From a virus: 39,217 bases of DNA. Shown here piece by piece: positions 5,267 through 30,200 of this stretch; the first letter of the stretch is position 1, and the number at the start of each line of letters is the position of its first letter. Made by a program: the position numbers and the translations under genes. The notes under the pieces are model-generated. The model worked only from the letters and a program-made list of their open reading frames with translations. It was not told the DNA's origin and did no database searches. The stretch spans positions 1 to 39,217 of the IMG/VR virus record IMGVR_UViG_3300045005_000291; one strand, written 5' to 3'.

Positions 5267-5294
5267 AATCGGGGTATGACATTCGGAGATGACT

Positions 5295-6002
5295 ATGCAC
5301 TACGTCGCACCTGCCTTTTACAAAAAAGCATTCAACTGCCCGCATTGCAATGCACACACACAGATGCATTGGTTCCCCTGCTATATCTTCCTGGAAGGTA
5401 AAGGTAGGGTTGACGTTCACATGCATCGAGTCACTTGCGATGTCTGCGAGGATCATGCCTACTGGTTAGGAGAACGTCTGACTAAACTAAATGAAGGGAT
5501 GCGACCACACGATTTTCATGAATATAACCGGATTGCAGCTGAGAAAAGTTTTCAGGTATTTCCATCTATTAGCACTGCACCGATGCCCAACCCCGACCTG
5601 CCAGAAAACTGCCGCGACGACTACATGGAGGCGCGCGACATCTTTGCCCGCTCTCCTCGGGCTGCAGCCGCCTTGCTGCGGCTGGTTGTCCAGAAACTCT
5701 GCAAGCACTTTGGTGAACCTGGTCGAGACATCAATCAGGATATTGGTCGTCTAGTCGACAAAGGCTTGCCTAGAACGCTACAACAGGCACTAGACACCGT
5801 GCGGGTAATCGGTAACGAGGCAGTACACCCCGGAGAGCTGGATTTGAATGATAGTCCCGAGGCCGTAGCTGCACTCTTCAAACTGGTAAATCTGATTGTG
5901 GAAAAAATGATCACAGAACCCAAGCAGATCGCGGAGTTATACCAGACAATCCCTGAAAAGAAGCTGCAAGGTATCGAGCAGCGAGATAAACCCAAACCCT
6001 AA
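5295..6002 (+). CDS. Zinc-ribbon DUF4145 (HEPN-like) moron protein
   Basis: A 235-residue cargo gene on the strand opposite to the tail operon. The N-terminus has CPHC (about residues 15-18) and CDVC (about 50-53), a likely zinc ribbon. Residues about 105-215 form a DUF4145 domain, with ARDIFARSPRAAAALLRLVVQ and the conserved VRVIGNEAVHPGEL. DUF4145 belongs to the HEPN-like helical group often found with restriction and other defence proteins. The ATG at 5289 sits against its ribosome site, so the ATG at 5295, six bases after GGAG, is preferred. Its stop overlaps the stop of gpV tail-to-tail (CTAA). GC is visibly lower than in neighbours, pointing to separate acquisition. The biochemical role is unknown. 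Confidence 0.8.
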   Translation: MHYVAPAFYKKAFNCPHCNAHTQMHWFPCYIFLEGKGRVDVHMHRVTCDVCEDHAYWLGERLTKLNEGMRPHDFHEYNRIAAEKSFQVFPSISTAPMPNPDLPENCRDDYMEARDIFARSPRAAAALLRLVVQKLCKHFGEPGRDINQDIGRLVDKGLPRTLQQALDTVRVIGNEAVHPGELDLNDSPEAVAALFKLVNLIVEKMITEPKQIAELYQTIPEKKLQGIEQRDKPKP

Positions 6003-6634
6003 TGGCTATGGTGGTTCGAGTTACCCCCACCATCCATCACGCTGCCACTGGCGGTGATATTTCCGTCAACCTGCACATCTCCCGTAACCTGCACGCCACC
6101 GCTGATGGTGGCGGCTGCACCACCGCCACCCGAGCCGGCCATGCCGCCCTGGTAGGTCAGCTTGCCCTGCACCAGCAGGTTGCCGGTGGCTTCGGTGTCT
6201 GGCGCGTCGATGGTTACCTTGCTGCCGGCACGTAGCAGGATGGTGGCGCCGACCTCGACGATCACCTGCTGGATGCCGCCCTTGATCGTCAGCACGTGGC
6301 TGGCGCGGTCGTATTCCAGCTCGGTATCGTCGGCAAAGCGGCGGTGCCATTTGTCGCGGCTGGCCACCGGCACCGCGTCGGCCTCCGAGAAGATGGCGCC
6401 CAGCACCACGCCGTCTTCGCCGCGTGCATCCAGCAGCACCGCCACGTGCTCGCCCAGGTCGGGCAGCCAGTAGTCCTTGTCCCGCGCCGCTTTACGCGCC
6501 AGCACGGGTAGCCAGGCGGTGCGCAGGTTGTCCAGCTCCGGCAGGCGCACCCGCACGCGCAGGGTCTGTTCGTCCACGGCGGCCACGGTGCCGAATTTCA
6601 GCGTGGTGCCGGCTTCGGTAAAGGTCTCGTTCAT
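5999..6634 (-). CDS. Baseplate spike protein V (Mu gp45-like)
   Basis: A 211-residue gpV-family spike that pierces the outer membrane at the centre of the baseplate. It has an OB-fold N-terminal part (FGTVAAVDEQTLRVRVRLPE; WLPDLGEHVAVLLD). A Gly/Val/Thr-rich stretch of about 110 residues follows that would form the intertwined beta-helix. The C-terminus ends NSNHHSH, giving an HxH tip of the kind that binds iron in P2 and Mu spikes. ATGA-coupled to gene D. Confidence 0.94.
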   Translation of the reverse strand: MNETFTEAGTTLKFGTVAAVDEQTLRVRVRLPELDNLRTAWLPVLARKAARDKDYWLPDLGEHVAVLLDARGEDGVVLGAIFSEADAVPVASRDKWHRRFADDTELEYDRASHVLTIKGGIQQVIVEVGATILLRAGSKVTIDAPDTEATGNLLVQGKLTYQGGMAGSGGGGAAATISGGVQVTGDVQVDGNITASGSVMDGGGNSNHHSH

Positions 6635-7797
6635 GTCGGTTTCTTCTTGGTTGTAGTGCCTACTGCCTGCACTTTGCCGTCCTTCACGCCGTACACCGTC
6701 AGCCTCTTGGGTGCGGCCGGCTTCTTACTGGTGCGCTGGGCTTTGGCGGCCGGTGCCACGCGCTTTAGTTCCAGCGTGGTGAGGTAGCCCTCGCCCCGGC
6801 TGATGCGGTGGGTGGCGCGGGTGATGGTGTAGCGGCCGGACAGCTTGCCCAGCCCGGTCAGCGTGATCACGCTGCCGGCAGCCAGTACCGGGTCGCCCTC
6901 GAGTGTGACCTCCATGCGGGTGCGGTCCAGCAGGCGGCGATCCAGGTGGGCGCGGGCCTGCGCCTCGGCGGCCTGCTTGGTCGGCGCACGGCGGGTGAGC
7001 TTGACGGTGTCGGCGCTGCTGTCCTTGCCACCATCAGCGTTACCCGTCACCGTGGTCTCGCCGTTTTGCACACCGTACACCACCAGCTGCTTGCGCTGCG
7101 GGTCGTGGTATTTCACCCGGGCCGCGGCTGGCACGTTGCTCAGCTTGTCGGTGGCCTGCCAGCTGAGCAGCTGCGCCGGGCCGTAGCTGCGCACGGCCTT
7201 GGCCAGGTGCAGATCAGCATGCATCCAGAACACGAGCTTGCTGTTGTTCTCGGTGACCTTGAAAGCGTAGCCGTACTCGCCGGCCAGGCGGGCGAGGAAG
7301 GCCAGATCGGTCTCGTGGTACTGCGTGGCGCGGTCGATGGCGATGGCGTCGATCTTGCCCACCAGCGTCATCTTGTGCGCCTTGGCCACGCGCTGGGCGA
7401 TGGCCGCCAGCGTGGTCTTCTCGTAGGCACGGCCTTTGCGGGTGCGGACGGCCTGCTGCACGCCGGTGGCCAGGGCGCGGATACGGACAGTGGACGGTGG
7501 TGCCTGGTAGCCGACCTCGTCGATATCGAAGCGGCCAACGGGCACCAGCGGCGTGCCCAGGTAACCCAGCGCCAGCGTGAGCGCTGCGCCCTTGTCCGGG
7601 TACCAGCTGTCCAGCCAGCGGCCGTCGCTGTCTTCCAGCTCGACATCCAGCTCGTCCGACTCACCCGACAAGTGGTCGGTGTAGGTGATGCCCAGCACGA
7701 AGGGGGCAATGTCGGCGGTGATGGCCTTGCCGTTGTAGGCCAGGTCGAAGGCCGGTGCCGGCACCTCCGCCAGCCGGTAGTCGTTCAGCGTTTCCAT
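6631..7797 (-). CDS. Baseplate hub protein D (late control D family)
   Basis: A 388-residue gpD-family (VgrG/gp27-like) baseplate hub protein. It carries the family features ITYTDHLSGESDELDVELED near residues 38-57, the central TLAAIAQRVAKAH and RATQYHETDLAFLARLAGEYG, and a Lys-rich C-terminal tail. It connects tail tube and spike. Start overlaps gene X by 13 bases and its stop overlaps V (ATGA), the usual U-X-D-V cluster. Confidence 0.95.
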   Translation of the reverse strand: METLNDYRLAEVPAPAFDLAYNGKAITADIAPFVLGITYTDHLSGESDELDVELEDSDGRWLDSWYPDKGAALTLALGYLGTPLVPVGRFDIDEVGYQAPPSTVRIRALATGVQQAVRTRKGRAYEKTTLAAIAQRVAKAHKMTLVGKIDAIAIDRATQYHETDLAFLARLAGEYGYAFKVTENNSKLVFWMHADLHLAKAVRSYGPAQLLSWQATDKLSNVPAAARVKYHDPQRKQLVVYGVQNGETTVTGNADGGKDSSADTVKLTRRAPTKQAAEAQARAHLDRRLLDRTRMEVTLEGDPVLAAGSVITLTGLGKLSGRYTITRATHRISRGEGYLTTLELKRVAPAAKAQRTSKKPAAPKRLTVYGVKDGKVQAVGTTTKKKPT

Positions 7798-8005: not shown

Positions 8006-8935
8006 TCAGGACAGGGTGCTGCGCGTGGCAGCTTTGGCGGCCAGACGCGCCAGCGGTACCGCCAGCGCGTCCAGCTCTTGTGCGGTGCGCTCGCTCAGGC
8101 CGCCGGCCGCCGACAACTTGCCCGGCAGGTTGTGGCCATCGGCGCCGGACAGCAGGCCAGGCAGCGAGGCCAGGTCGCTTTTGACCCGCGCCAGCCCCTT
8201 GGCCAGCCGCTCGGTATCGCCGGCCGTGGCGGCGAGCTGGCCAAACTGCTGGATGCTGACGCTGGCCAGCCCCAGGCCGGGCAGCACACCCTGGGCGTCG
8301 CGCATTACCCCCGGCAGGCGGCCGATGACCGCCAATGGGTCGCGGCCAGCCAGGCTGCGCAAGCCCTGCAGCGTTCGGATCACGCCATGGGTGGTGGCCA
8401 GCGCACTCTTGGCGCGCGCCACCGCCAGGCCCAGGCCGCCCGCGTTGGCTTTTAGCAGCACGCCGCTGGCCTGCGGAAAAGGCTTGGCTAGCGGTACCCG
8501 GCTGGCCGGCAAGCGCGCGCTGGTGAGCCCCTGTAGCGCGGGGGCCTGGGGCTTACGCGCCTGGCCGGTGAACTCTTTCAGCGACAGCTGTGCCTCCGCC
8601 GCCAGCAGGCTGCCGGTGCGGTCGGTATGGCGGCCAGTGGCCTGCAGCTCGGTAATGACGAAGCGGCCTTTGTAGTCGCCATTGCCCAGTACCAGCGCCA
8701 AGGCGGTGCGTAATTGCATGGCCCCGCGCAGGCGGGTCAGCTCGGCCTCCGGGTGGCAGTAGGTAGCGTGAAACACCAGGTCGATGCGAATTTCGTCCAG
8801 CTTGTCGCCGACGAACTGCAGCGCCGGCTTGCCGCCGATCAGCGCGTGTTCGGCGTAGTCGCTGCCGAAGCGCGCTTCCATACCGTCGAAATAGGTAATC
8901 AGGTCGAATTCGATCTCACCCAATACGGCATACAT
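8006..8935 (-). CDS. Tail protein U with long C-terminal extension
   Basis: The first 125 or so residues are a P2 gpU domain (VLGEIEFDLITYFDGMEA; LRIDL-type strand; LQFVGDKLDEIRIDL; SLKEFTG), which acts at tail-tube completion. The remaining 180 residues are an Ala/Gly/Leu-rich, apparently helical tail, making the protein more than twice the usual gpU length. The start overlaps the tape-measure stop (TGATG). Confidence 0.9.
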   Translation of the reverse strand: MYAVLGEIEFDLITYFDGMEARFGSDYAEHALIGGKPALQFVGDKLDEIRIDLVFHATYCHPEAELTRLRGAMQLRTALALVLGNGDYKGRFVITELQATGRHTDRTGSLLAAEAQLSLKEFTGQARKPQAPALQGLTSARLPASRVPLAKPFPQASGVLLKANAGGLGLAVARAKSALATTHGVIRTLQGLRSLAGRDPLAVIGRLPGVMRDAQGVLPGLGLASVSIQQFGQLAATAGDTERLAKGLARVKSDLASLPGLLSGADGHNLPGKLSAAGGLSERTAQELDALAVPLARLAAKAATRSTLS

Positions 8936-11900
8936 CAGCTGTTACCTCCATAGCTGCGGCGTTGCTTGTCGGCTTCGTAGCGCTTCATCATGCGCTCGAA
9001 CTCGGCAAAGGAAAGCTGCATCGCCTGCTTGACCTGCTGCTGTACCTCCTTGGCCGTGCCCGGCTGCAGGGTGATCTGCGGCGAGAACAAGATACGCCCT
9101 GGCGGCTGCCGCGCCGGTGTGGCAGCGCGCGTCTGCTGCAGCCGGGCTGCCAGCCACTGCTGCGCCGGCATGACCGGCGGGCGGGATGCCAGCACGGGTG
9201 GCGGATAGGGTGTGCGCGGCGGCACCCCCGCGCCTGGCCGCTGCAGTACCGGTGCCAGGGCGGTGGCAGGCAGCAGGCGCTGGCGTACCGTCTGCAGGGC
9301 GTCTGCCGGTGCGGGCAAAGCATTGACAAGGTGCCGCGTCACCGCTTGCTGCAGCGGCGCCAGTGCCGGCTTGGCCGCCGTGATGATGCGCTGGCGTACC
9401 GTCTGCAGGACGTCTGCCGGTGCCGGCAAAGCATTAACAAGGTGCCGTGTCCCCCCTTGCTGCAGTGATGCCTGAGTCAGGGCGGTGGCAGGCAGCAGTC
9501 GCTGGCGTACCGCTTGCAGGGCGTGTGCCGGTGCGGGCAAGCGGCTTGCCAGGCCGGGTGCCAGCGCCTGCCGTGGCGGCGCCTGCGTGACGGAGGTGGC
9601 AGGCGAGATGCCCGGCACGGGTATAGGCAAGGCCGGCTGGCCCCAGGCACTGGTGGTGGCCAGCGCCATGCCGGCGGTGGCACGGGCCACGATACCGGCG
9701 GTGCGGCCTATGCCGATGGCCGCGCCCTGGCCGATGTTATCGCCAAAGCCCATGAACACCCGCGACGGCGAGCGGATGCCCAGCGCCGACTTGAACTTGC
9801 CCGCCACGCCGCTGGCCAGGTCACCCACTGCCGCCATCGCCGTACCCACCTTGGCCTTGATGCCGCCTACCAGCCCCATCACCATGTCCTGGCCAAACTG
9901 CAGAAAGCGCCCGGGCAGCGCCTGCACGTACGCGACCACCGGCCGCCAGTAAACGACGAAGCCGGCGATCTTGCTGCGCATCCAGTCCCAGGCGGTGGTC
10001 ATTGACTGTTTGATACCCTGCCACAAGCCGCTGAACCAGGGTTTGATCTTGTCCCAGTGGCGATAGATAAGCCAGGCGCCCAGCGCGATGGCGGTAATGG
10101 CCAGGCCGATAGGGTTCAGCATCAGGGCGCGGCCCAGCCACAGTACGGCGCGCCCGGCACCCAGCAGGCTGCGTATCAGGCTGCCCCCCAGCTGAGCCCC
10201 CAGGCGCAGCGCGTGCAGGCCCAGCCGCCCCAGGCCGGCCCCCAGGCGCAGGCTCAGCGACAGTGCCATGCGCATGCCGCTGCCCAGCCCGGCAAACAGC
10301 CGCCCGCCCAGCCCGGCACCCAGCGCCCGTGCCTGGCGTGATACTGCCGCCAAACCACTACCCAGCCGGCCCAGGCCGGCGGCCCACCTGCCGGCCTGCC
10401 GTGCCCCCATACCCATCAACTGCAGCAGCTGCGGCAGGCGCGCGCCACCGCCGGCCACCATGGCGCGCAACAGGGCAAAGCGCCCGGTCAATACCTGCCA
10501 GGCGGTACCCACCGCATTGGCCGGGGCGAGAAACAGGAAGTTACCCAGAAACTTCAGCCCGAAGGCGGCGGTGCGCAGGGCCACCATGCCGCCGACCACG
10601 CCGATGATGCCGCGCAAGACACCGGGGTGCTTGCCGGCCCAGTCGCCAAAGCGCTTCAGCATGGGCACGAAGGCATCCAGTGCGCTGGTAAGCGATGGCA
10701 GCAGCGCATTGCCGATGGTGATGGCTACATCGCTTACCTGCGTGGTGAAGCGCTGCCAGGCCTTTTGCGCCGTTTGTGCCCGCCGGGCGTAATCGGTATC
10801 GATGGTGCCCTGCGCCTGCGGGCTGGCCATCTGTTTTTTGTTTTGCTGGTACTTGTCCCAGTTCTGGCGCATGGCCAGCAGGTGGTTGATGGTCTGGATG
10901 TCGGTGAAGATCTCGCTCAGGCCAAAGCTCTCCATCAGCTGGCGCTGGGCGTTCTCGTCGCCGGCCTTGCCGGCCTTTTGCCATTGCGCCATGAAGGCCT
11001 TGCCCTTGCCGGTAATGAACTTGTCGGCGATCTGCAGGCTGGCCTCGTAGCTGGAATAGCCCTGTGCCACCAGGTTCTGCATGGACTGCTGGTAATCCAC
11101 CCCCGCCTTGCTGTACGCCTTGGTGGTGTGCCCGGTATTCATGTGGCTCATCCAGTTGACCAGGTTTGTCACCGCCTCGCCATCGCTACCGGCTGCGCTG
11201 CGACCTACCTCCAGGCTGGCAATGATCTGGGTCAGCGCCGCTTGGCCCTGCATGCCCTTGGCCGCAAAGGTACTGGTGAGCGTGGGCAGGTATTGCGCCA
11301 TGGCTTTGAGCTCGAACTGGCCGAGCTTGGCACCGTAGGCCGCCCGGTTCAGCGCGGCTTTCAGATGGGACTCGCCTTTGATGCCCAGGCTGCCGGACAG
11401 CGAGAACATCATTCTGGCCAGGTCGTTCATGTCGGCGTTGGTGGCGGTAGCGGCTTTACCCAGCAACGCGGCGTACTTGCCGGCCTCGGTGGCGCTCATG
11501 CCCTGGGCCACCAGGGTGCCCACGCCCTGCAGGATGGCCTCGTGCCCCTGACTGGTGGCCAGCGCTGACTGCCGCAGGGTGTTGCCCAGGGCGATTTCTT
11601 CCCGCATCTTGAGATTGCCGGTGATGGCGATGTCGCGCAGCCCGGCCTCGAAGCTGGCGGCCTGCTTGACGGCACCCAGCAGTGGCGCGCCAACCGCCAC
11701 CGCCGTGGCGGCACTTTCTTTCAGGCCACCCAGGTGCTGCTGCCGCGCCTCACCCAGTGCCTGACCGTGCTGCATACTGGCGCGCAGGGCTTTTTGCCTG
11801 GCCTGCACACGGGCAATGGCCTGGCCAAGGCTATCGTATTGCTGGCGCAGCGCACCGATACCGGCCCTGGGGCTGGCCATGGCCTGTGCCAGCGCCTTGC

Positions 11901-12042
11901 CCATCTGCCCATGCTGCTTGCGCAGGGTGTCGGCGCTGTTGCCCAGCTCGCCCAGGGTTTTGCGTGCGCCGCTAAAAGTGGCCAGATAAGACGCCTGCAG
12001 TACTGCGCCAATCGCCACACTGACCAGCAACTCTTTCGCCAT
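8935..12042 (-). CDS. Tape measure protein (Mu gp42 equivalent)
   Basis: A 1035-residue tail tape measure protein that sets tail length and is passed out with the DNA. The N-terminal 150 residues are a coiled-coil (LGELGNSADTLRKQHGQ and following). A TP901-type core follows at about 150-330 (ISITGNL-like repeat, GKAATATNADMNDLARM). Hydrophobic segments lie at about 480-510 and 645-665 (LMLNPIGLAITAIALGAWLIYRHW). A three-fold 37-residue repeat covers about 835-945, and the C-terminus is Gln-rich. The gene is preceded by a + strand moron rather than directly by E/E', an interruption of the normal E-E'-tape order. Confidence 0.95.
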   Translation of the reverse strand: MAKELLVSVAIGAVLQASYLATFSGARKTLGELGNSADTLRKQHGQMGKALAQAMASPRAGIGALRQQYDSLGQAIARVQARQKALRASMQHGQALGEARQQHLGGLKESAATAVAVGAPLLGAVKQAASFEAGLRDIAITGNLKMREEIALGNTLRQSALATSQGHEAILQGVGTLVAQGMSATEAGKYAALLGKAATATNADMNDLARMMFSLSGSLGIKGESHLKAALNRAAYGAKLGQFELKAMAQYLPTLTSTFAAKGMQGQAALTQIIASLEVGRSAAGSDGEAVTNLVNWMSHMNTGHTTKAYSKAGVDYQQSMQNLVAQGYSSYEASLQIADKFITGKGKAFMAQWQKAGKAGDENAQRQLMESFGLSEIFTDIQTINHLLAMRQNWDKYQQNKKQMASPQAQGTIDTDYARRAQTAQKAWQRFTTQVSDVAITIGNALLPSLTSALDAFVPMLKRFGDWAGKHPGVLRGIIGVVGGMVALRTAAFGLKFLGNFLFLAPANAVGTAWQVLTGRFALLRAMVAGGGARLPQLLQLMGMGARQAGRWAAGLGRLGSGLAAVSRQARALGAGLGGRLFAGLGSGMRMALSLSLRLGAGLGRLGLHALRLGAQLGGSLIRSLLGAGRAVLWLGRALMLNPIGLAITAIALGAWLIYRHWDKIKPWFSGLWQGIKQSMTTAWDWMRSKIAGFVVYWRPVVAYVQALPGRFLQFGQDMVMGLVGGIKAKVGTAMAAVGDLASGVAGKFKSALGIRSPSRVFMGFGDNIGQGAAIGIGRTAGIVARATAGMALATTSAWGQPALPIPVPGISPATSVTQAPPRQALAPGLASRLPAPAHALQAVRQRLLPATALTQASLQQGGTRHLVNALPAPADVLQTVRQRIITAAKPALAPLQQAVTRHLVNALPAPADALQTVRQRLLPATALAPVLQRPGAGVPPRTPYPPPVLASRPPVMPAQQWLAARLQQTRAATPARQPPGRILFSPQITLQPGTAKEVQQQVKQAMQLSFAEFERMMKRYEADKQRRSYGGNS
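9208..9540 (-). repeat. Three tandem 111-base repeats in the tape measure gene
   Basis: Three consecutive units, about 9430-9540, 9319-9429 and 9208-9318, each encoding about 37 residues beginning LPAPA(D/H) and containing LQTVRQR; the first two end TRHLVNA. The third diverges after its middle. A gain or loss of a unit would change the protein by exactly 37 residues in frame. Confidence 0.85.
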
Positions 12043-12100: not shown

Positions 12101-12397
12101 ATGACCGAGCGTTTTTTTGCTGCCCTAGACCAGACGCTGCAAACGGGGGCCATCATCAGCAAGATGGCCCTGGTGCTGCTGCAGGCAGCGGCCTTGATGA
12201 CCCTGGGGTATTGGGCCTGGCAGTTGGCGGATGGCAGCATGGCGGGCACGGTGTTTTTCACGCTACTGGCGCTGTTTTTCACCTGGCCCATTCTGGCTTG
12301 GGGTGTGCCTGCTCTCGCCATGCTGCTAGGCATGGGCTGTGGCGCACTGATCCAGGCCACGGCGGCCCTTATTCGCCGCTGCCGTGCTCGTGTTTGA
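12101..12397 (+). CDS. Small two-helix membrane protein (moron)
   Basis: A 98-residue protein on the strand opposite to the tail operon, inserted between E/E' and the tape measure gene. It has two or three hydrophobic stretches (about 22-41 ALVLLQAAALMTLGYWAWQL, 48-70, and 70-88) and an Arg-rich C-terminus (IRRCRARV), suggesting an inner-membrane protein with a basic cytoplasmic tail. A TATACT box lies upstream. Its last 29 bases overlap the E' frame tail-to-tail. No family recognised. Small membrane morons of this type often block superinfection, but nothing here proves that. Confidence 0.6.
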   Translation: MTERFFAALDQTLQTGAIISKMALVLLQAAALMTLGYWAWQLADGSMAGTVFFTLLALFFTWPILAWGVPALAMLLGMGCGALIQATAALIRRCRARV

Positions 12398-12497
12398 TCT
12401 GCTCTGCCGCCGCGTCTACCCAGCGGAAAAAGTCTGGCACCGTGAGCCGGTCGATTTCACCCGGCTGAAAGCGGAACCACCTCGCCAGCAGTGCCGC
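12369..12497 (-). CDS. Tail chaperone extension E' (reached by frameshift)
   Basis: In the frame shifted -2 (equivalently +1) from gene E the sequence encodes LARWFRFQPGEIDRL and then TVPDFFRWVDAAAEQI, ending HGSGE. This is the typical small GpE/E' chaperone segment of P2- and Mu-type tails. It has no start codon or ribosome site of its own close by. The E frame passes GGG-GGC-GGC at 12493-12501, where a slip of the Gly tRNA from GGC back to GGG would enter this frame. The fused product would be about 131 residues. The stop is TAA at 12369-12371. Confidence 0.75.
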   Translation of the reverse strand, partial: AALLARWFRFQPGEIDRLTVPDFFRWVDAAAEQIKHEHGSGE

Positions 12498-12762
12498 CCC
12501 CGTCCATAGCGTTTGCGCTGATACCCAGCACGTCCAGAAATCGCGCCTTCAGGCGCTGGTAATCTGCCGCGTCCATGTCGTCCAGGTCTTCCGGCACCAG
12601 GCCTGCCATGCGCGCCACGCCCAGTAGCTCCATCTGCGCCGGCTGGGCGTCGCCCTGGTCGCTGATGGCCTTGATGTCGCGCACCTTCAGGCGGCGCAGG
12701 GTCAGTGCCTCGATGCGCAGGCCGGACGGGGCGGTGTAAGGGTAAAGAAGGGTGAATTCCAT
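12457..12762 (-). CDS. Tail assembly chaperone E (Mu gp41-like)
   Basis: A 101-residue Phage_TAC-type protein: LRIEALTLRRLKVRDIKAI followed by LGVARMAGLVPEDLDDMDAADYQRL. It binds the tape measure during tail assembly and is normally made in two forms, E alone and E-E' by ribosomal frameshifting. The ribosome site CAGGAG precedes the ATG at 12762. The G-rich slip site lies 14 codons before the TGA stop. Confidence 0.92.
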   Translation of the reverse strand: MEFTLLYPYTAPSGLRIEALTLRRLKVRDIKAISDQGDAQPAQMELLGVARMAGLVPEDLDDMDAADYQRLKARFLDVLGISANAMDGGGTAGEVVPLSAG

Positions 12763-12854
12763 GATGGCTCCTGCCGGTGTGGGGTATGGCAGGATGGTGG
12801 GCTTAGCTGGCGCGGAAGTCGGTTAAACCTGTTTACGAATAGAGAACACGCAAA

Positions 12855-14117
12855 ATGACCAGTACAGATACAGACAAGACTGAAAACGCTTCGAATGGCT
12901 GGGTAGCTATTCAAAGCCAGTTCAAGGAGCTTGAGGACGATATACAGCTCTACTATTCGGAGCCAGGGACGTTAGAGTTTGATGTGGGTGATGGTGAGAA
13001 ATTCAGCATCCGTAAATCTGAAGTAATTCAACTTTACAGCCAATGCAGCATGTACCTTGAAGTATTGACTGCAATCAATAATATCAATGACAGAACTCAG
13101 ATTTACATTGATGAAGTTAGTAAAATTCTTCAGGAAGCAAAATCTCAGGGGGTTGCTAACAAAGAATACCCTACTTGGCGATTGCGCAGTAAGGGTTTTA
13201 TTCAAAAATTCTTGGCCATTAAGATTGCCCAAGTAATTTATACCTTGTACGAGATTGTTCCTCTGGCTGATCGAATAGAGGCAGTAATGCCTGATGCTGT
13301 TCGAACGCTAGCTACGCTCAACGAAGAATCAAATGAGAACACTATTGGTGAAGCTAAGGGTCTAGTCTTTACTATAAAGCGTCATGAGGAGGCCGCCACC
13401 TTCACTCTCGATAATATAAAAAGCATAGCTGGGAAAACCGAGGCGCTGCACACCAAGATTTTCGCAGAATCTACGATGATCGACGAGGCACTAAATAAGT
13501 TAAGGGGTGTCGATGATCACCTTGCTAAAGCCAACGAGAAAATAGATGGTCTATTGGCGAATGCCAGCAAGATTGGCTTGGCGAAATCGTTCCAGGATCG
13601 CAGGATCATTCTAGAGGAAGCCCAGAAGCAATGGAGAAAATTGTTTGTTGGTGGCATTGCTTTAATTTTTTTGGCCGTATTTCTGGAGCAGTTCATAATC
13701 CAGAAAGAAACCGCTTTAACCATTAACGCGGTGTTGACCAGAATGTTGCTGGCAGCGCCAATGGTGTGGCTAACCTGGTTTGCCGCGCGCCAGTTCGGTA
13801 ATAACGCGCGCCTGATCGAGGACTACGCGTTCAAGGAAAGCTCGGCGCTGGCCTACCACGGCTACAAGAACGAGTTCTTGGGCGATCAGGACCACGAAAC
13901 GCTCACCGTGCTGCGCAAGGTGGCCGCTGAGAACTTTGGCGCCAACCCCACGCGCATGCTGCCGGGGCAGGAGGCGGCGTCGCCCTTGCACGAGCTGCTG
14001 GAAGGCGCGCTGAAAAAAGAAGGCTTTGACAAGATTGTGACCGTGCTGAATGCGCTGAACCCCAAGGCCAAGGGCGATGACAGCGCCGCCAAAAAGGACG
14101 ACAAGAAAGACGCCTAG
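12855..14117 (+). CDS. Coiled-coil membrane moron, possible exclusion protein
   Basis: A 420-residue protein encoded against the tail operon between the tube and E genes. Residues 1-255 are charged and largely helical. Two membrane helices follow at about 262-281 (LFVGGIALIFLAVFLEQFI) and 294-313 (LLAAPMVWLTWFAARQF). The C-terminal cytoplasmic part contains NNARLIEDYAFKESSALAY, a motif resembling C-terminal membrane modules of DUF6161-like proteins, and ends in a Lys/Asp tail. Codon and base use change inside the gene: AT-rich to about 13740, then GC-rich like the phage core. A strong hairpin follows the stop. No function can be assigned; a phage-exclusion or defence role is inferred from its moron position and membrane topology. 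Confidence 0.7.
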   Translation: MTSTDTDKTENASNGWVAIQSQFKELEDDIQLYYSEPGTLEFDVGDGEKFSIRKSEVIQLYSQCSMYLEVLTAINNINDRTQIYIDEVSKILQEAKSQGVANKEYPTWRLRSKGFIQKFLAIKIAQVIYTLYEIVPLADRIEAVMPDAVRTLATLNEESNENTIGEAKGLVFTIKRHEEAATFTLDNIKSIAGKTEALHTKIFAESTMIDEALNKLRGVDDHLAKANEKIDGLLANASKIGLAKSFQDRRIILEEAQKQWRKLFVGGIALIFLAVFLEQFIIQKETALTINAVLTRMLLAAPMVWLTWFAARQFGNNARLIEDYAFKESSALAYHGYKNEFLGDQDHETLTVLRKVAAENFGANPTRMLPGQEAASPLHELLEGALKKEGFDKIVTVLNALNPKAKGDDSAAKKDDKKDA

Positions 14118-14240: not shown

Positions 14241-14765
14241 TTAGCCGCCGATATGGGCGCGGTAGGTGTCCAGCATGTCCTCGCCGCCCACGCGGAAGAT
14301 GTTGGCCAGGTAGTCCAGCTCCAGGATGTCCTCGCCGTCCAGCACCTGCTTGATATAGGTGGCAGAAAAGCTGGAGGCGAACTCGGCGTTGTCGTGCTGC
14401 TTGTACGTGCCGAGCGGGTTTTTCTTGAACATCACGGTGAGGTAGGTGACCAGCGGCTTTTCTTCCACGCGGCCACCCTGGCCGTAGGTTTCCACGCTGG
14501 AGCGGCACTGCAGCTGCACCGTCTGGTACGGGTTGGCCGTGGTTTTCATCGCCTCGGGGTAGAAGCTGTTCCACTTGATCTCGCCTTCCAGCTTGTCGAA
14601 GCCGGACGGCAGCTCGATCTTGCCGATCATGCCCAGCGCCTTGTGCTCGGTCATGATGGCCTGCACGTCGGGTAGCTTGATCTCTTCGGCGCGGCCCAGC
14701 AGGCTGTTGCCTGCCATATAGATGTTGGCGTTGGTGATGCGGTTGACCTGGATTTTGCCAGCCAT
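14241..14765 (-). CDS. Major tail tube protein (Mu gpM-like)
   Basis: A 174-residue P2 FII-type tail tube protein: MAGKIQVNRITNANIYMAGNS at the start, EEIKLPDVQAIMTEHKALGM, PSGFDKLEGEIKW and KHDNAEFASSF-like strands. It polymerises into the inner tube within the sheath. Start ATG at 14765 follows AACCTCC-complement (GGAGGTTTGAATC spacing) on the - strand. The sheath gene is upstream, separated by a 146-base spacer with several hairpins. Confidence 0.95.
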   Translation of the reverse strand: MAGKIQVNRITNANIYMAGNSLLGRAEEIKLPDVQAIMTEHKALGMIGKIELPSGFDKLEGEIKWNSFYPEAMKTTANPYQTVQLQCRSSVETYGQGGRVEEKPLVTYLTVMFKKNPLGTYKQHDNAEFASSFSATYIKQVLDGEDILELDYLANIFRVGGEDMLDTYRAHIGG

Positions 14766-14911: not shown

Positions 14912-16342
14912 TCAAGCGCCGCCTTTCAGGGTGGCCAGGTAGTCGTCGGTGATCTCGGTCTCGAAGGTGAGCCGTTCCATCGGCGGCGGCGGGGTGTATT
15001 TGTAGCTGATCAGCACGTGGCCGGCGGCCAGCTCGGTCTTGGGGTTACGCGCCGGGTCATACCACGCTTTGAAACCCAGCACCGCGCCGTCGCCAATCAG
15101 CTTGCGCCCATAGCCGTTCACCGACTCCACCAGGGCATCGATCAGCGCTTGCTCTATCGGCCGGTCCATATACTGCAGGCTGAAGTAGCGGATCGACTCG
15201 TTGATGATGTCGCCGGTGCGCCGTACCGGGATGAAGTTCTTCATGTGCGTGAGCACCGGCCAGGCAGCCGAACGGTTGCCCCATACCCGCAGGCCACTAC
15301 CGAAGCTGTTGAACACGGTGACGATACCGGCCTCGTTCAGCAGGTTCACTTCCGCATTCGGGTCGTCGATCATGGCCGACAGCTTGCGCTCCAGGCCGAC
15401 GATGCCCTTGATCTCGGTATTGGACGGCGACCACCAAAACCCGCGCGCCAGGTCTTTGGCCGCCATCACGCCGGCCAGGCGCTGGCTATAGGGTTCCAGC
15501 CGCTCGCTATCGCTGGCGGCGTCGTACACCTTCAGGTGCGGGTAACACAGGATGGCCCGCTCGCTGGTGGTGTTGAAGTTGATGCTGCCAGCGGGGCCAC
15601 GCCCTGCCAGCGCCTGGGCGAAGGTGGTCCCCACCGGTGCGTCGATCAGCGCGAAGGCGTCCAGGTAGTCGGCCATGGCAATCAGCTCGGCCGACACCGA
15701 GGTCTGCGTGCAGTACGCCGGAGCGATCAGCAGCTTGGCGAAGAAGCCCATCAGGTTGTAGGTGTCGCGCAGCGCCTGCATGCCGGTACGCTGGCCGGCG
15801 GCGTTGACGGTACCGATGATGTCGGCGGCCGTGACCTTGCCCGGGTCGGCGTAATCGTAGCCGGCCTTGATGCTGGCGCCGGCGGCGATGGCGCCGCCCT
15901 TGAGGCGGACAATCTCGCCCGTGACCGGGGTGACGGTGTAGTCGGTGTCCTTCACGTAGGGGGGCGCGTTGTCGTGGCTCTTCAGCACCAGATTGGCCAC
16001 CGCACCGTGGGCCAGCTTCGCGCGGTCGGTCGAGGCGTCGAAGGTGATGGCTTCGCCCGCTACGTTGGTCTTGTGGATGGCCGGGTCGAGCACGTTGATC
16101 ACGATCACCGTGCCGGCACCCTGGTCGTAGATGGCATCCAGCGCCTGCGGGATGGTGAAGCCGGCCAGCTGCGGGCCAAAGCCTGCCGCGTCGCGGTCGG
16201 ACAGCACCAGCACGGGCTGGTTGATGTCGCCGGCCGGCGCGGTGCCGATCAGGCCGATGACGGCACTTTTGACGGTTTTGACGGGGCGCCCGCCGTTATC
16301 CTTTTCGATGCTTTCGACGCCGTGCAGGAAACTAGCTGGCAT
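14912..16342 (-). CDS. Tail sheath protein (Mu gpL-like)
   Basis: A 476-residue contractile tail sheath protein. Family features are the N-terminal KSAVIGLIGTAPAGDINQPV, the ALDAIYDQGAGTVIVINV segment, and the C-terminal core with NSFGSGLRVWGNRSAAW and FIPVRRTGDIINESIRY. It overlaps the preceding small gene by 11 bases. Length is normal for Mu-type sheaths. Confidence 0.96.
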   Translation of the reverse strand: MPASFLHGVESIEKDNGGRPVKTVKSAVIGLIGTAPAGDINQPVLVLSDRDAAGFGPQLAGFTIPQALDAIYDQGAGTVIVINVLDPAIHKTNVAGEAITFDASTDRAKLAHGAVANLVLKSHDNAPPYVKDTDYTVTPVTGEIVRLKGGAIAAGASIKAGYDYADPGKVTAADIIGTVNAAGQRTGMQALRDTYNLMGFFAKLLIAPAYCTQTSVSAELIAMADYLDAFALIDAPVGTTFAQALAGRGPAGSINFNTTSERAILCYPHLKVYDAASDSERLEPYSQRLAGVMAAKDLARGFWWSPSNTEIKGIVGLERKLSAMIDDPNAEVNLLNEAGIVTVFNSFGSGLRVWGNRSAAWPVLTHMKNFIPVRRTGDIINESIRYFSLQYMDRPIEQALIDALVESVNGYGRKLIGDGAVLGFKAWYDPARNPKTELAAGHVLISYKYTPPPPMERLTFETEITDDYLATLKGGA

Positions 16343-27901: not shown

Positions 27902-29179
27902 TTAAAACTTTATCTTCGCTATTCCAGCCATGCCTTGAAGCTTTTTCTTAAATTTCTCTGGAAGCCATTTCACTACTGTCCAGGCTAGCACGTCGTATGT
28001 CAGCATTGGTAACGCGCAGTAAATACCCCAAAGGAGTGATTCAATTAATAATTCACGTGAGACCGAGAAATGCAAGAGCATCCCAGTGGTAACAGCTAGT
28101 GCTAGCGCAACAAGTAGATCTACAACCCTGATCAAACGCTCTTGATGCCTATATCGTTTGTCAAGTTGTTTGTAGCTAGCACTAAACCTGTCAGCGACAG
28201 AGTGATGCTTGCCTTTAATTTGTTGCCACTGCTGGTCAATCTCCTGCTGCACTGCATGTAGGGTATGGCGCTGATTTCTAACTAGCAAGGTCATTAAGAC
28301 GGCGAACACTAGAACTCCCAGCCAAATTAGAAGATTTTTACTGGACCAGGCGGCTTTATCTTCCATTTGGCCACCAGCCAAAACCAAAGCAGCAGGAACA
28401 GCTAGCAACTGATTCTGAATATCCGAGAAGACTTTGTTTAGTTTGGTTGTTGCATCTAACTTTTCCTTTTCTACTTCGGCTTTAACCTTTTGGAACGAGA
28501 ATTCGGAAACATAAAGCTGATAACTGGCCTGCACCTTCTCTAAGAATTCACTAAATTGTGATAATAATTCAGAGAATGGAACCCGACTTCGGCCTGTGAA
28601 CATTTCTAGTAAAACCGTTTTGATGATTGTCTTCTTTTGTTCCTTATGTGTTTTTGATTCAGTGAATTCAGATTGAAATTCGGAAATTCCCGTTAGGGTA
28701 CAGAGATTTTCAGAGTTGTATTCTGGGGCAAATTCGATTTTTTCCTTCTGAAGGAAGATCAATGTTTTTGCACTGCCAATGCCACCTTGGTGGTCAGCGG
28801 TTTTTTCTAGAAGCGAGTACAATTTTGTTGCGGCAATGTAGCGCTCAACGGGCTCTGGGGGTGAAACTGAATCATTCTTGTGCTGATAATCACAGTCTGC
28901 CAAGTAAAAGCGAGGTGGCGGTGTAATTCGCCGACTTGGCGCCTCTAGCAGTGCGGACAAGGATATGAAAAAATCTATAGGGAGGTGGAACTCCAAAAAT
29001 CTGAGATTCTTGTTTGCTGCAATCAGCAGATCACAAGAGTCGAGGCGCGCCTCAACCGCCTCGAAATCAATTTCATCAGAGACAGTCCCACTAAGTTGCC
29101 CAGACGCGACTTCACGATTCGGCATGCTTTTATATAGCAGAATCGTGAGATCAAGCGGGTCGTCAGGTAGCAGGTTCAT
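27902..29179 (-). CDS. Multi-pass membrane protein paired with NdpA (cargo unit gene 2)
   Basis: A 425-residue protein not recognised by family. Residues 1-185 look soluble, about 190-260 are helical (LLSQFSEFLEKVQASYQLYV, VEKEKLDATTKLNKVFSDI), and three membrane segments follow near 283-303, 350-370 and 378-402. The C-terminus is basic. It overlaps the NdpA-like gene by 17 bases, so the two are co-translated. Base composition is strongly AT-rich relative to the phage core, indicating recent or separate acquisition. A membrane effector coupled to a nucleoid-associated sensor is one plausible reading; no function is established. Confidence 0.7.
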   Translation of the reverse strand: MNLLPDDPLDLTILLYKSMPNREVASGQLSGTVSDEIDFEAVEARLDSCDLLIAANKNLRFLEFHLPIDFFISLSALLEAPSRRITPPPRFYLADCDYQHKNDSVSPPEPVERYIAATKLYSLLEKTADHQGGIGSAKTLIFLQKEKIEFAPEYNSENLCTLTGISEFQSEFTESKTHKEQKKTIIKTVLLEMFTGRSRVPFSELLSQFSEFLEKVQASYQLYVSEFSFQKVKAEVEKEKLDATTKLNKVFSDIQNQLLAVPAALVLAGGQMEDKAAWSSKNLLIWLGVLVFAVLMTLLVRNQRHTLHAVQQEIDQQWQQIKGKHHSVADRFSASYKQLDKRYRHQERLIRVVDLLVALALAVTTGMLLHFSVSRELLIESLLWGIYCALPMLTYDVLAWTVVKWLPEKFKKKLQGMAGIAKIKF

Positions 29180-30200
29180 CTTTTTTTGCTTTGTGCGTCT
29201 TTATCTCTTTGATTAGTTCTTCCGGCAGGTCTGAGATGACCAAGCTGTTACTGGTCTCATCATAGTCAACACGCCCATCCATCAGGTCCTGAACATCAAA
29301 GCTCACTTTCACAGAGCCGAACTGACGACTGATCCGCTTGAACCGGACATAGGTCTCTTTATGGGGCTTGAATGTTTCGCTGACTTCGTAGCCGTTTTCC
29401 CGTACGAAACCTACAAACGCATCAGGCTGTTGATCATTGACCACTGCGGAAAGTGCAGTCAGGTTGACTGGCTCCTCTGCTTTCGTTTTGGCTTCGCAGT
29501 ACTCGTAGACACGTCGCCGTGCCTCACGCTTTTGCTCTGTTGTCCAGTCTTGCGAGAGACAGTAGGCTTCGACAGCATCGCGCATCTGCTGGGTATTATG
29601 CTTGGATTCGTTGTATTCGGTACAGCCCAAAGCCTTGCGGAAGTACAGGGTAACGTCTTCGCCACCGCTACGCTTTTTGATGAAAGATAGATAGGGCTGC
29701 TGATTTCTCTGCCACCTACCCAGGTCGATACGTGCAGCTTCGTGCAGATGATCAACATCAAAAGTCAATGTATCCAGAAGCTCAAGCGTCGTCTGATTGA
29801 TACCTGTGCCTGCCTTAAGCTTCAACATCACTACTAGCAACCAGTCTTGTCCTTGATTGATATAGCGAAGGAACAATGCATACCCGCCAGTCGCAAAAAA
29901 TGCGCTACTCATCTCCTTGGCAATCAAGTCAGTAGTTGACTCAGTAAAACCAATAAAGTCAGTGCCATTTACAGCATAGTTGCGTAGTAGTACGGGGAAA
30001 GGATACAAAATTTCATTAGCATCAAAGGTGCCGTATCCGCTGATGGACTTTGCATAAATCTTGAGAACATTCTCGGCTGTTTTCTGAAGCCGGTCATCAA
30101 TAGCTAGGCGTGTCTTTCTAGGGGTAACAGACACTGAATCGGCACCAGTCGTTTTTTCTTCCTTGGAAATCTTATGAAGAATAGCTTCTTGGATTTGCAT
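29163..30200 (-). CDS. NdpA/YejK-type nucleoid-associated protein (NA37 family)
   Basis: A 345-residue member of the 37-kDa nucleoid-associated family (YejK/NdpA, about 335 residues in E. coli). Visible family features: ATGGYALFLRYINQGQDWLL, LKLKAGTGINQTTLELLDTL, DVDHLHEAARIDLGRW, PYLSFIKKRSGG, YFRKALGCTEYNESKHNT and the C-terminal SFDVQDLMDGRVDYDE. Known relatives bind DNA, but their exact role is unclear. As a prophage cargo gene with a linked membrane protein it may sense invading or replicating DNA. AT-rich compared with neighbours. No strong ribosome site is seen before 30200. Confidence 0.9.
   Translation of the reverse strand: MQIQEAILHKISKEEKTTGADSVSVTPRKTRLAIDDRLQKTAENVLKIYAKSISGYGTFDANEILYPFPVLLRNYAVNGTDFIGFTESTTDLIAKEMSSAFFATGGYALFLRYINQGQDWLLVVMLKLKAGTGINQTTLELLDTLTFDVDHLHEAARIDLGRWQRNQQPYLSFIKKRSGGEDVTLYFRKALGCTEYNESKHNTQQMRDAVEAYCLSQDWTTEQKREARRRVYEYCEAKTKAEEPVNLTALSAVVNDQQPDAFVGFVRENGYEVSETFKPHKETYVRFKRISRQFGSVKVSFDVQDLMDGRVDYDETSNSLVISDLPEELIKEIKTHKAKKDEPAT

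Follow-up and report, generated by a model that had tools for sequence, protein, structure and literature searches.

Several membrane proteins and cargo genes that act against phages provide the closest comparisons for the locus considered here. Superinfection exclusion at DNA entry is represented by proteins of the SieA, Imm and Sie2009 type. The SLATT proteins (SMODS/SLOG-associated 2TM effectors) combine two transmembrane (TM) helices with a helical cytoplasmic part, and ZorA of the Zorya system is a membrane protein whose long helical tail lies in the cytoplasm. The annotation of the P2 record credits the genes fun(Z), tin and old with blocking T5, T-even phages and lambda. The place between gpA and the portal gene has been reported as a defence hotspot (PMC9122126), and a second report describes both this place and the fun place as such (PMC9519451). 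The passages concerned do not name the protein family described below, which also has no name in Pfam, NCBIfam or PADLOC.

A cargo gene between the tail tube and chaperone genes

The window, that is, the whole stretch of 39,217 bases that was analysed (record IMGVR_UViG_3300045005_000291), comes from a Mu-like phage. Profile matches identified an rve transposase next to an AAA ATPase, a Mu-type portal and a minus-strand contractile-tail cluster. The gene under study lies on the plus strand in the gap between the tail tube and tail assembly chaperone genes, antiparallel to the tail genes (Table 1). The open reading frame and its minus-strand flanks confirmed the first-pass annotation, which had described a 420-residue membrane protein running against the tail operon between these two genes.

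Table 1. Coordinates of the features of the cargo locus in the window
Feature	Position	Strand	Basis or remark
Tape measure gene	8935..12042	-	
Tail assembly chaperone gene, flanking	12457..12762	-	PF10109 Phage_TAC_7, 6e-18
Cargo insert, DNA unshared with closest relative phage (L095)	12767..14242		blastn pieces stop at 14243 and resume at 12766
Cargo gene, 420-aa membrane protein	12855..14117	+	ATG start; C-module HMM E 1.1e-51 (profile A7, whose rows include the window's own module)
N-terminal domain, residues 1-174	12855..13376	+	No relative detectable in the N-domains of the 124 other members of the family; model of low confidence
Coiled-coil stalk, residues 175-263, where the conserved module begins	13377..13643	+	Long model helix 165-282; phrog_30912 match 173-395
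TM1, residues 264-282	13644..13700	+	Hydropathy 2.36; model
Composition break point, after codon 290	13722..13727	+	End of modelled TM1-TM2 loop
TM2, about residues 294-312, with W305/W308	13734..13790	+	Alignment to relatives; W305 invariant in alignment A4
Juxtamembrane motif R-L-I-E-D-Y-A-F-K, residues 319-327	13809..13835	+	Conserved columns
Tail tube gene, flanking	14241..14765	-	PF04985 Phage_tube, 1e-54
Tail sheath gene	14912..16342	-	

A hydropathy scan of the protein gave TM1 as the single clear TM helix. TM2 falls below the hydropathy threshold, yet it aligns with TM2 of the relatives and is modelled as a helix. By this alignment and the invariant columns, the protein carries the two TM helices with W..W and EDY.FK that define the family. 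Residues E322, D323, Y324 and K327 are invariant in 31 aligned proteins and in 44 modules, and single relatives match the C-module of the window pairwise, down to 2e-43. Pfam, NCBIfam and PADLOC gave no noteworthy match to the protein, which matched PHROG 30912 over residues 173-395 (2e-15) and PHROG 34659 over residues 293-401 (4e-10).

The two closest relatives of the phage by tube protein, L094 and L095, have 93% identity in that protein, with flanking DNA mostly at 79-93%. In L095, whose flanks match mostly at 79-92%, only 131 bp separate the tube and chaperone genes. A survey of this gap covered 80 loci kept from 220 confirmed tube relatives, and 68 of them had a recognisable chaperone gene. 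The gap measured at most 200 bp in 37 of these, 201-530 bp in 27 and more than 530 bp in four. The family was absent from all 80 loci in a search that recovered the window as positive control (E 1e-51), and no member was seen in seven sister-phage records, a search run without a positive control. The gap of about 131 bp in the closest relative and the unrelated inserts in others mark the window gene as cargo. It is prophage cargo, a moron, since the site is empty or replaced in sister phages and the gene has its own orientation and an odd composition; the earlier use of the term moron is borne out by sister phages in which the site is empty or differently filled. In Mu-like phages and their relatives with contractile tails, the gap between these two genes would merit searching as a cargo slot.

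Other contents of this gap were also recorded. In L094, a different small protein with one likely membrane helix (by eye) is encoded at 6524-7189, in the orientation of the tail operon, in a gap of 880 bp. The large gap of L105 (7019-8343) holds a PAAR gene beside an N-acetylmuramoyl-L-alanine amidase gene, so that a pair resembling secretion effectors lies within a phage tail cluster. The large gap of L108 (6815-8166) holds a PAAR gene and one unidentified gene, and L106 likewise has a PAAR-motif gene at this place. A small Fer2-like (2Fe-2S) ORF occupies the gap in L126 (5116-5445), L136 (5114-5458) and similar loci, with a Pfam match above the cut-off in L126 (4e-6) and below it in L136.

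The window contains further candidate cargo genes. A second plus-strand gene within the minus-strand tail cluster (5289-6002, 237 aa) matched DUF4145 (6e-16) and phrog_1305, "DNA binding protein". Its GC3 of 0.53, against 0.8-0.9 in the tail genes, suggests that it is probably another cargo gene. On the minus strand, 27902-30200 includes a 425-aa gene with GC3 0.44 and no Pfam match, which overlaps a gene for an NA37 nucleoid-associated protein (6e-67); these two genes are possibly a third cargo unit. A 98-aa ORF with hydrophobic stretches between the tape measure and chaperone genes (12101-12397, plus strand; GC3 0.73; no clear family) may be spurious.

Composition break and the N-terminal domain

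The GC content is 0.37-0.48 over 12.8-13.8 kb and 0.56-0.64 beyond. The switch is at synonymous sites: GC3 is 0.45 in codons 1-290 and 0.83 after codon 290, and the phage tail genes have a GC3 of 0.79-0.90. The best single break was placed at about window position 13725, with a likelihood ratio of 57.6 that was reached by none of 2000 permutations, and in the model it lies where the TM1-TM2 loop (residues 283-289) ends. Given this break and the place of TM2, the first-pass annotation was accurate in putting a switch from AT-rich to GC-rich DNA near 13740, close to the second membrane helix. Among 126 family genes (median likelihood ratio 4.1) the break of the window gene ranks first. The second-ranked break, in L212 (49.8), comes from a 779-codon reading whose start was probably set too far upstream by the script. 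Across 54 genes compared beforehand, the GC3 of the C-end minus that of the N-part had a mean of 0.003 (sd 0.077) against 0.39 in the window, and the switch is therefore a property of the window gene and not of the amino-acid make-up of the family.

The nearest relatives by C-module are nine genome members (L174-L182), which have 37-48% identity to the window depending on the cut, and one N-domain is common to all nine. In leave-one-out HMM comparisons, the window scored 212.7 bits for the C-module against 259-324 for the core members, and 3.0 bits for the N-domain against 72-114, where the best of 100 shuffles reached 9.9. Window residues 175-290 also resemble the core less (66.5 bits against 97-132) than do those after 290 (138.3 against 151-188). 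The C-module tree places the window and the nine core members in one clade (support 100/99), with L185 and L189 outside it. The core N-domain is also kept in two more distant members, giving eleven carriers in all. An AU test rejected a clade of these eleven that excludes the window (p 0.0085), on a quick tree and with the group taken from the N-domain clusters, though the first tree had already been seen. L183 and L184 are farther by C-module too and lack the core N-domain (8.7 and 2.1 bits).

Because the window C-module groups with the nine members, and these and the two distant members share an N-domain that the window lacks, replacement is the best reading of the N-terminal part. The GC3 break, the missing core N-domain and the tree discordance together point to recombination as the way in which the 5' part was replaced. 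By these comparisons the N-domain was very probably replaced by recombination, leaving a synonymous-site break in the TM1-TM2 loop. An exact-peptide search of viral contigs turned up neither a donor for the AT-rich 5' part nor a close relative of the window protein. Alternatively, the composition switch would be no recombination scar: the AT-rich gene would have been imported long ago, its 3' end would have shifted towards the phage composition or been gene-converted, and its N-domain would simply have evolved past recognition. Family-wide, N parts diverge much faster than C-modules, and the long branch of the window in the C-module tree (1.6 changes per column) fits faster erosion of the N-domain. 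Such an origin is nevertheless unlikely, as the break is a sharp one that no other of the 126 genes exceeds, and L185 keeps the N-domain (29.0 bits against 3.0) although its C-module is farther from the core (122.9 against 212.7). An overwritten 3' end, moreover, would leave a mosaic gene in any case.

Replacement by recombination is the exception in the family. Among 54 proteins, mostly P2-type, N homology (E<1e-3) was kept in 130 of 130 pairs at a C identity of at least 60%, in 384 of 416 at 50-60%, in 468 of 627 at 40-50%, in 40 of 97 at 30-40% and in 0 of 158 at 20-30%. These bins make fast divergence the rule, and N parts within the large P2-type clade mostly evolve fast by descent. For close relatives, the counts led to rejection of the idea that N-domains are freely shuffled throughout the family. 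The first-pass proposal of a swapped N-terminal region on a conserved C-terminal module is supported for the window gene by the GC3 break, the missing N homology to the nearest C relatives and the tree discordance. Its boundary has to be moved, as homology at the protein level starts near residue 174 and not 290, and residues 175-290 are conserved in the family but encoded by AT-rich DNA. Against swapping as a general rule speaks the fast divergence by descent of N parts in the mostly P2-type set of 54 proteins. The first-pass annotation is thus largely right on anatomy, whereas its sensor role and exclusion are inferred.

Family distribution, structure models and proposed function

Searches by tblastn with the window protein returned one phage record and 30 plasmid records, and each of the 21 listed places matches only from about residue 160 on. 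Two overlapping scans of viral contigs gave 42 and 35 confirmed members, and a scan of genome contigs gave 82, of which 80 were kept. In E. coli the family was present in 56 of 5426 genomes. A class sample had it in 2 of 274 genomes, one of which is the genome of L174, used as search seed. Viral contigs, genomes, plasmids and E. coli together yielded 133 distinct proteins, mostly of 400-480 residues, from Pseudomonadota, Acidobacteriota, Nitrospirota, Spirochaetota, Bacteroidota, Verrucomicrobiota and others. The C-module consists of the coiled-coil stalk, the TM hairpin and R-x-x-EDY-x-FK, and forms one connected cluster that takes in all 125 sequences compared. The N-domains of the same 125 form two clusters, of 104 and 11, and leave ten singletons, including the window; these are clusters of sequences and not of folds, and the cluster of 104 is perhaps inflated by single linkage via the coiled coil. 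In a literature drawn mostly from non-subscription papers, no mention of WP_001583354 was found, and the matches listed for coiled-coil membrane proteins that defend as single genes do not name the family.

Eleven of the 41 distinct viral loci adjoin the P2-type portal gene Q (the tin/old slot), one is in the fun slot, 27 have none of 14 marker proteins and two have markers farther off. Among 78 distinct genome loci, 77 have no marker and one adjoins a portal gene. The family gene lies between gpA and Q in the E. coli loci L088 and L089, and between the fibre-assembly gene and sheath FI in L092. In a further E. coli locus (L091) it is split into two annotated ORFs, and one E. coli copy is in an island beside an integrase and tRNA-Asn. 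Other members are on plasmids, upstream of the terminase of a lambda-like phage, or beside an integrase. Among the plasmid settings are a P2-like prophage and a Tni-type transposon, and two of the plasmids read are typed conjugative. Little signal of defence-island enrichment was seen in 114 genes near genome members: the best PADLOC families match 2 of the 114 and integrases 3 of the 114, both as raw counts.

The model of L025, a P2-type member, has a mean pLDDT of 82.6. It comprises a compact helical head (about residues 1-125; pLDDT 85-97 over 1-120) and a helix of about 150 residues (130-282) that enters the membrane and turns tightly into another long helix (289-347), after which the C-terminal helices are short. 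The model of the window protein agrees with it from residue 175, with pLDDT mostly 66-97 up to residue 400, and is unreliable before residue 175 (pLDDT 45-69). No solved structure related by sequence was found. Fold comparison with the PDB gave only coiled-coil and helical-bundle look-alikes, with Z values common for helical models. Those of the L025 head include the CC domain of a plant NLR, a four-helix bundle (4m70; Z 10.3, rmsd 2.6, 100 aligned), and the executioner domain of MLKL (6zz1; Z 8.3, rmsd 3.1, 109 aligned). This resemblance is treated as no more than a curiosity, and the look-alikes are generic. As no PDB fold match stands out, the terms pore and sensor are drawn from the architecture alone.

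The preferred reading, with about an even chance of being right (a probability near 0.5), is that the gene is prophage cargo encoding a single-protein membrane system that protects the lysogen by phage exclusion or abortive infection, in the broad form. Both ends of the protein would be cytoplasmic. The fast-changing or exchangeable N-domain would recognise a phage product, and recognition would be passed down the stalk to the TM hairpin. The hairpin would oligomerise and then either block DNA entry or permeabilise the inner membrane, so that the infection aborts. The lysogen, and hence the resident prophage, would be protected against other phages. Exclusion or abortive infection is favoured by where relatives occur: in the tin/old and fun(Z) slots of P2, on plasmids, and in a Tni-type transposon. 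The missing PADLOC model for the window protein, the weak defence signal in the 114 neighbours and the failure of any PDB fold match to stand out weigh against it.

Two other functions have been considered. The protein might act in superinfection exclusion at DNA entry only, as an inner-membrane block to genome translocation by related phages, with no killing. A membrane protein in a prophage cargo slot, and P2 slots that hold exclusion genes, are consistent with such a block. It is rated as quite improbable, however, because a stalk of about 120 residues with a folded, fast-evolving head (as in the L025 model) looks like an intracellular recogniser, and excluding a sister phage would be less useful to the members on plasmids and in the transposon. 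The gene might instead serve prophage fitness without any relation to phages, as a membrane protein of the envelope-stress or toxin-like kind, or take part in conjugation or replicon exclusion. The occurrence on plasmids, of which two among those read are typed conjugative, would suit such a role, and so would the lack of a defence-model match and the weak defence neighbourhood. Recurrence in two separate P2 phage-exclusion slots speaks against a role of this kind, which is likewise regarded as rather doubtful.

Tentatively, and at somewhat less than even chances, the window gene and its relatives could constitute a widespread anti-phage family in which one membrane effector module is joined to unrelated N-terminal recognition domains exchanged by recombination, a one-protein "receptor plus pore" in prophage cargo slots. 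If so, one gene family for which Pfam, NCBIfam and PADLOC have no model would span many phyla and use both P2 defence slots. Recognition domains would be traded on a fixed membrane effector, and head swaps would test whether phage specificity follows the head.

Comparison with known systems

PADLOC-DB 2.0.0 gave no family for the window protein at E 0.1, and other members gave weak matches of the coil type. The two PHROG families match only the C-module, and no function is attached to either. The ZorA2 profile matched the coiled coil of P0002 (residues 138-262, E 9e-4), the only ZorA match among nine proteins. A match to ZorA over its membrane part was not found, the window protein having no ZorA match and the sole one among the nine being confined to that coiled coil; ZorA was also not among the PDB fold matches listed.

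One viral protein with a SLATT name appeared at rank 4 in a BFVD search (E 0.07), and comparison with a two-sequence SLATT_5 alignment gave a probability of 0.6%. No such name was among the best 25 of 39 Pfam families listed for 44 modules, and the SLATT_1 profile matched neither the family modules nor the controls, a result that carries no weight. SMODS and SLOG were absent among the best 25 of 127 families listed for the 114 neighbour genes. The window family differs from SLATT in that a long stalk precedes the hairpin.

By annotation, P2 tin and old are different proteins from the family. Homology to P2 Fun(Z) was not found, at an hhalign probability of 0.1% against the C-module profile, and tblastn with a fun-slot member, to E 1, had only PSTCR8lys and two Mycobacterium phage records among the matches listed. 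The family shares with P2 tin, old and fun(Z) the use of the same two genomic slots and the nature of cargo genes, and the family genes in P2-like phages are AT-richer than their flanks.
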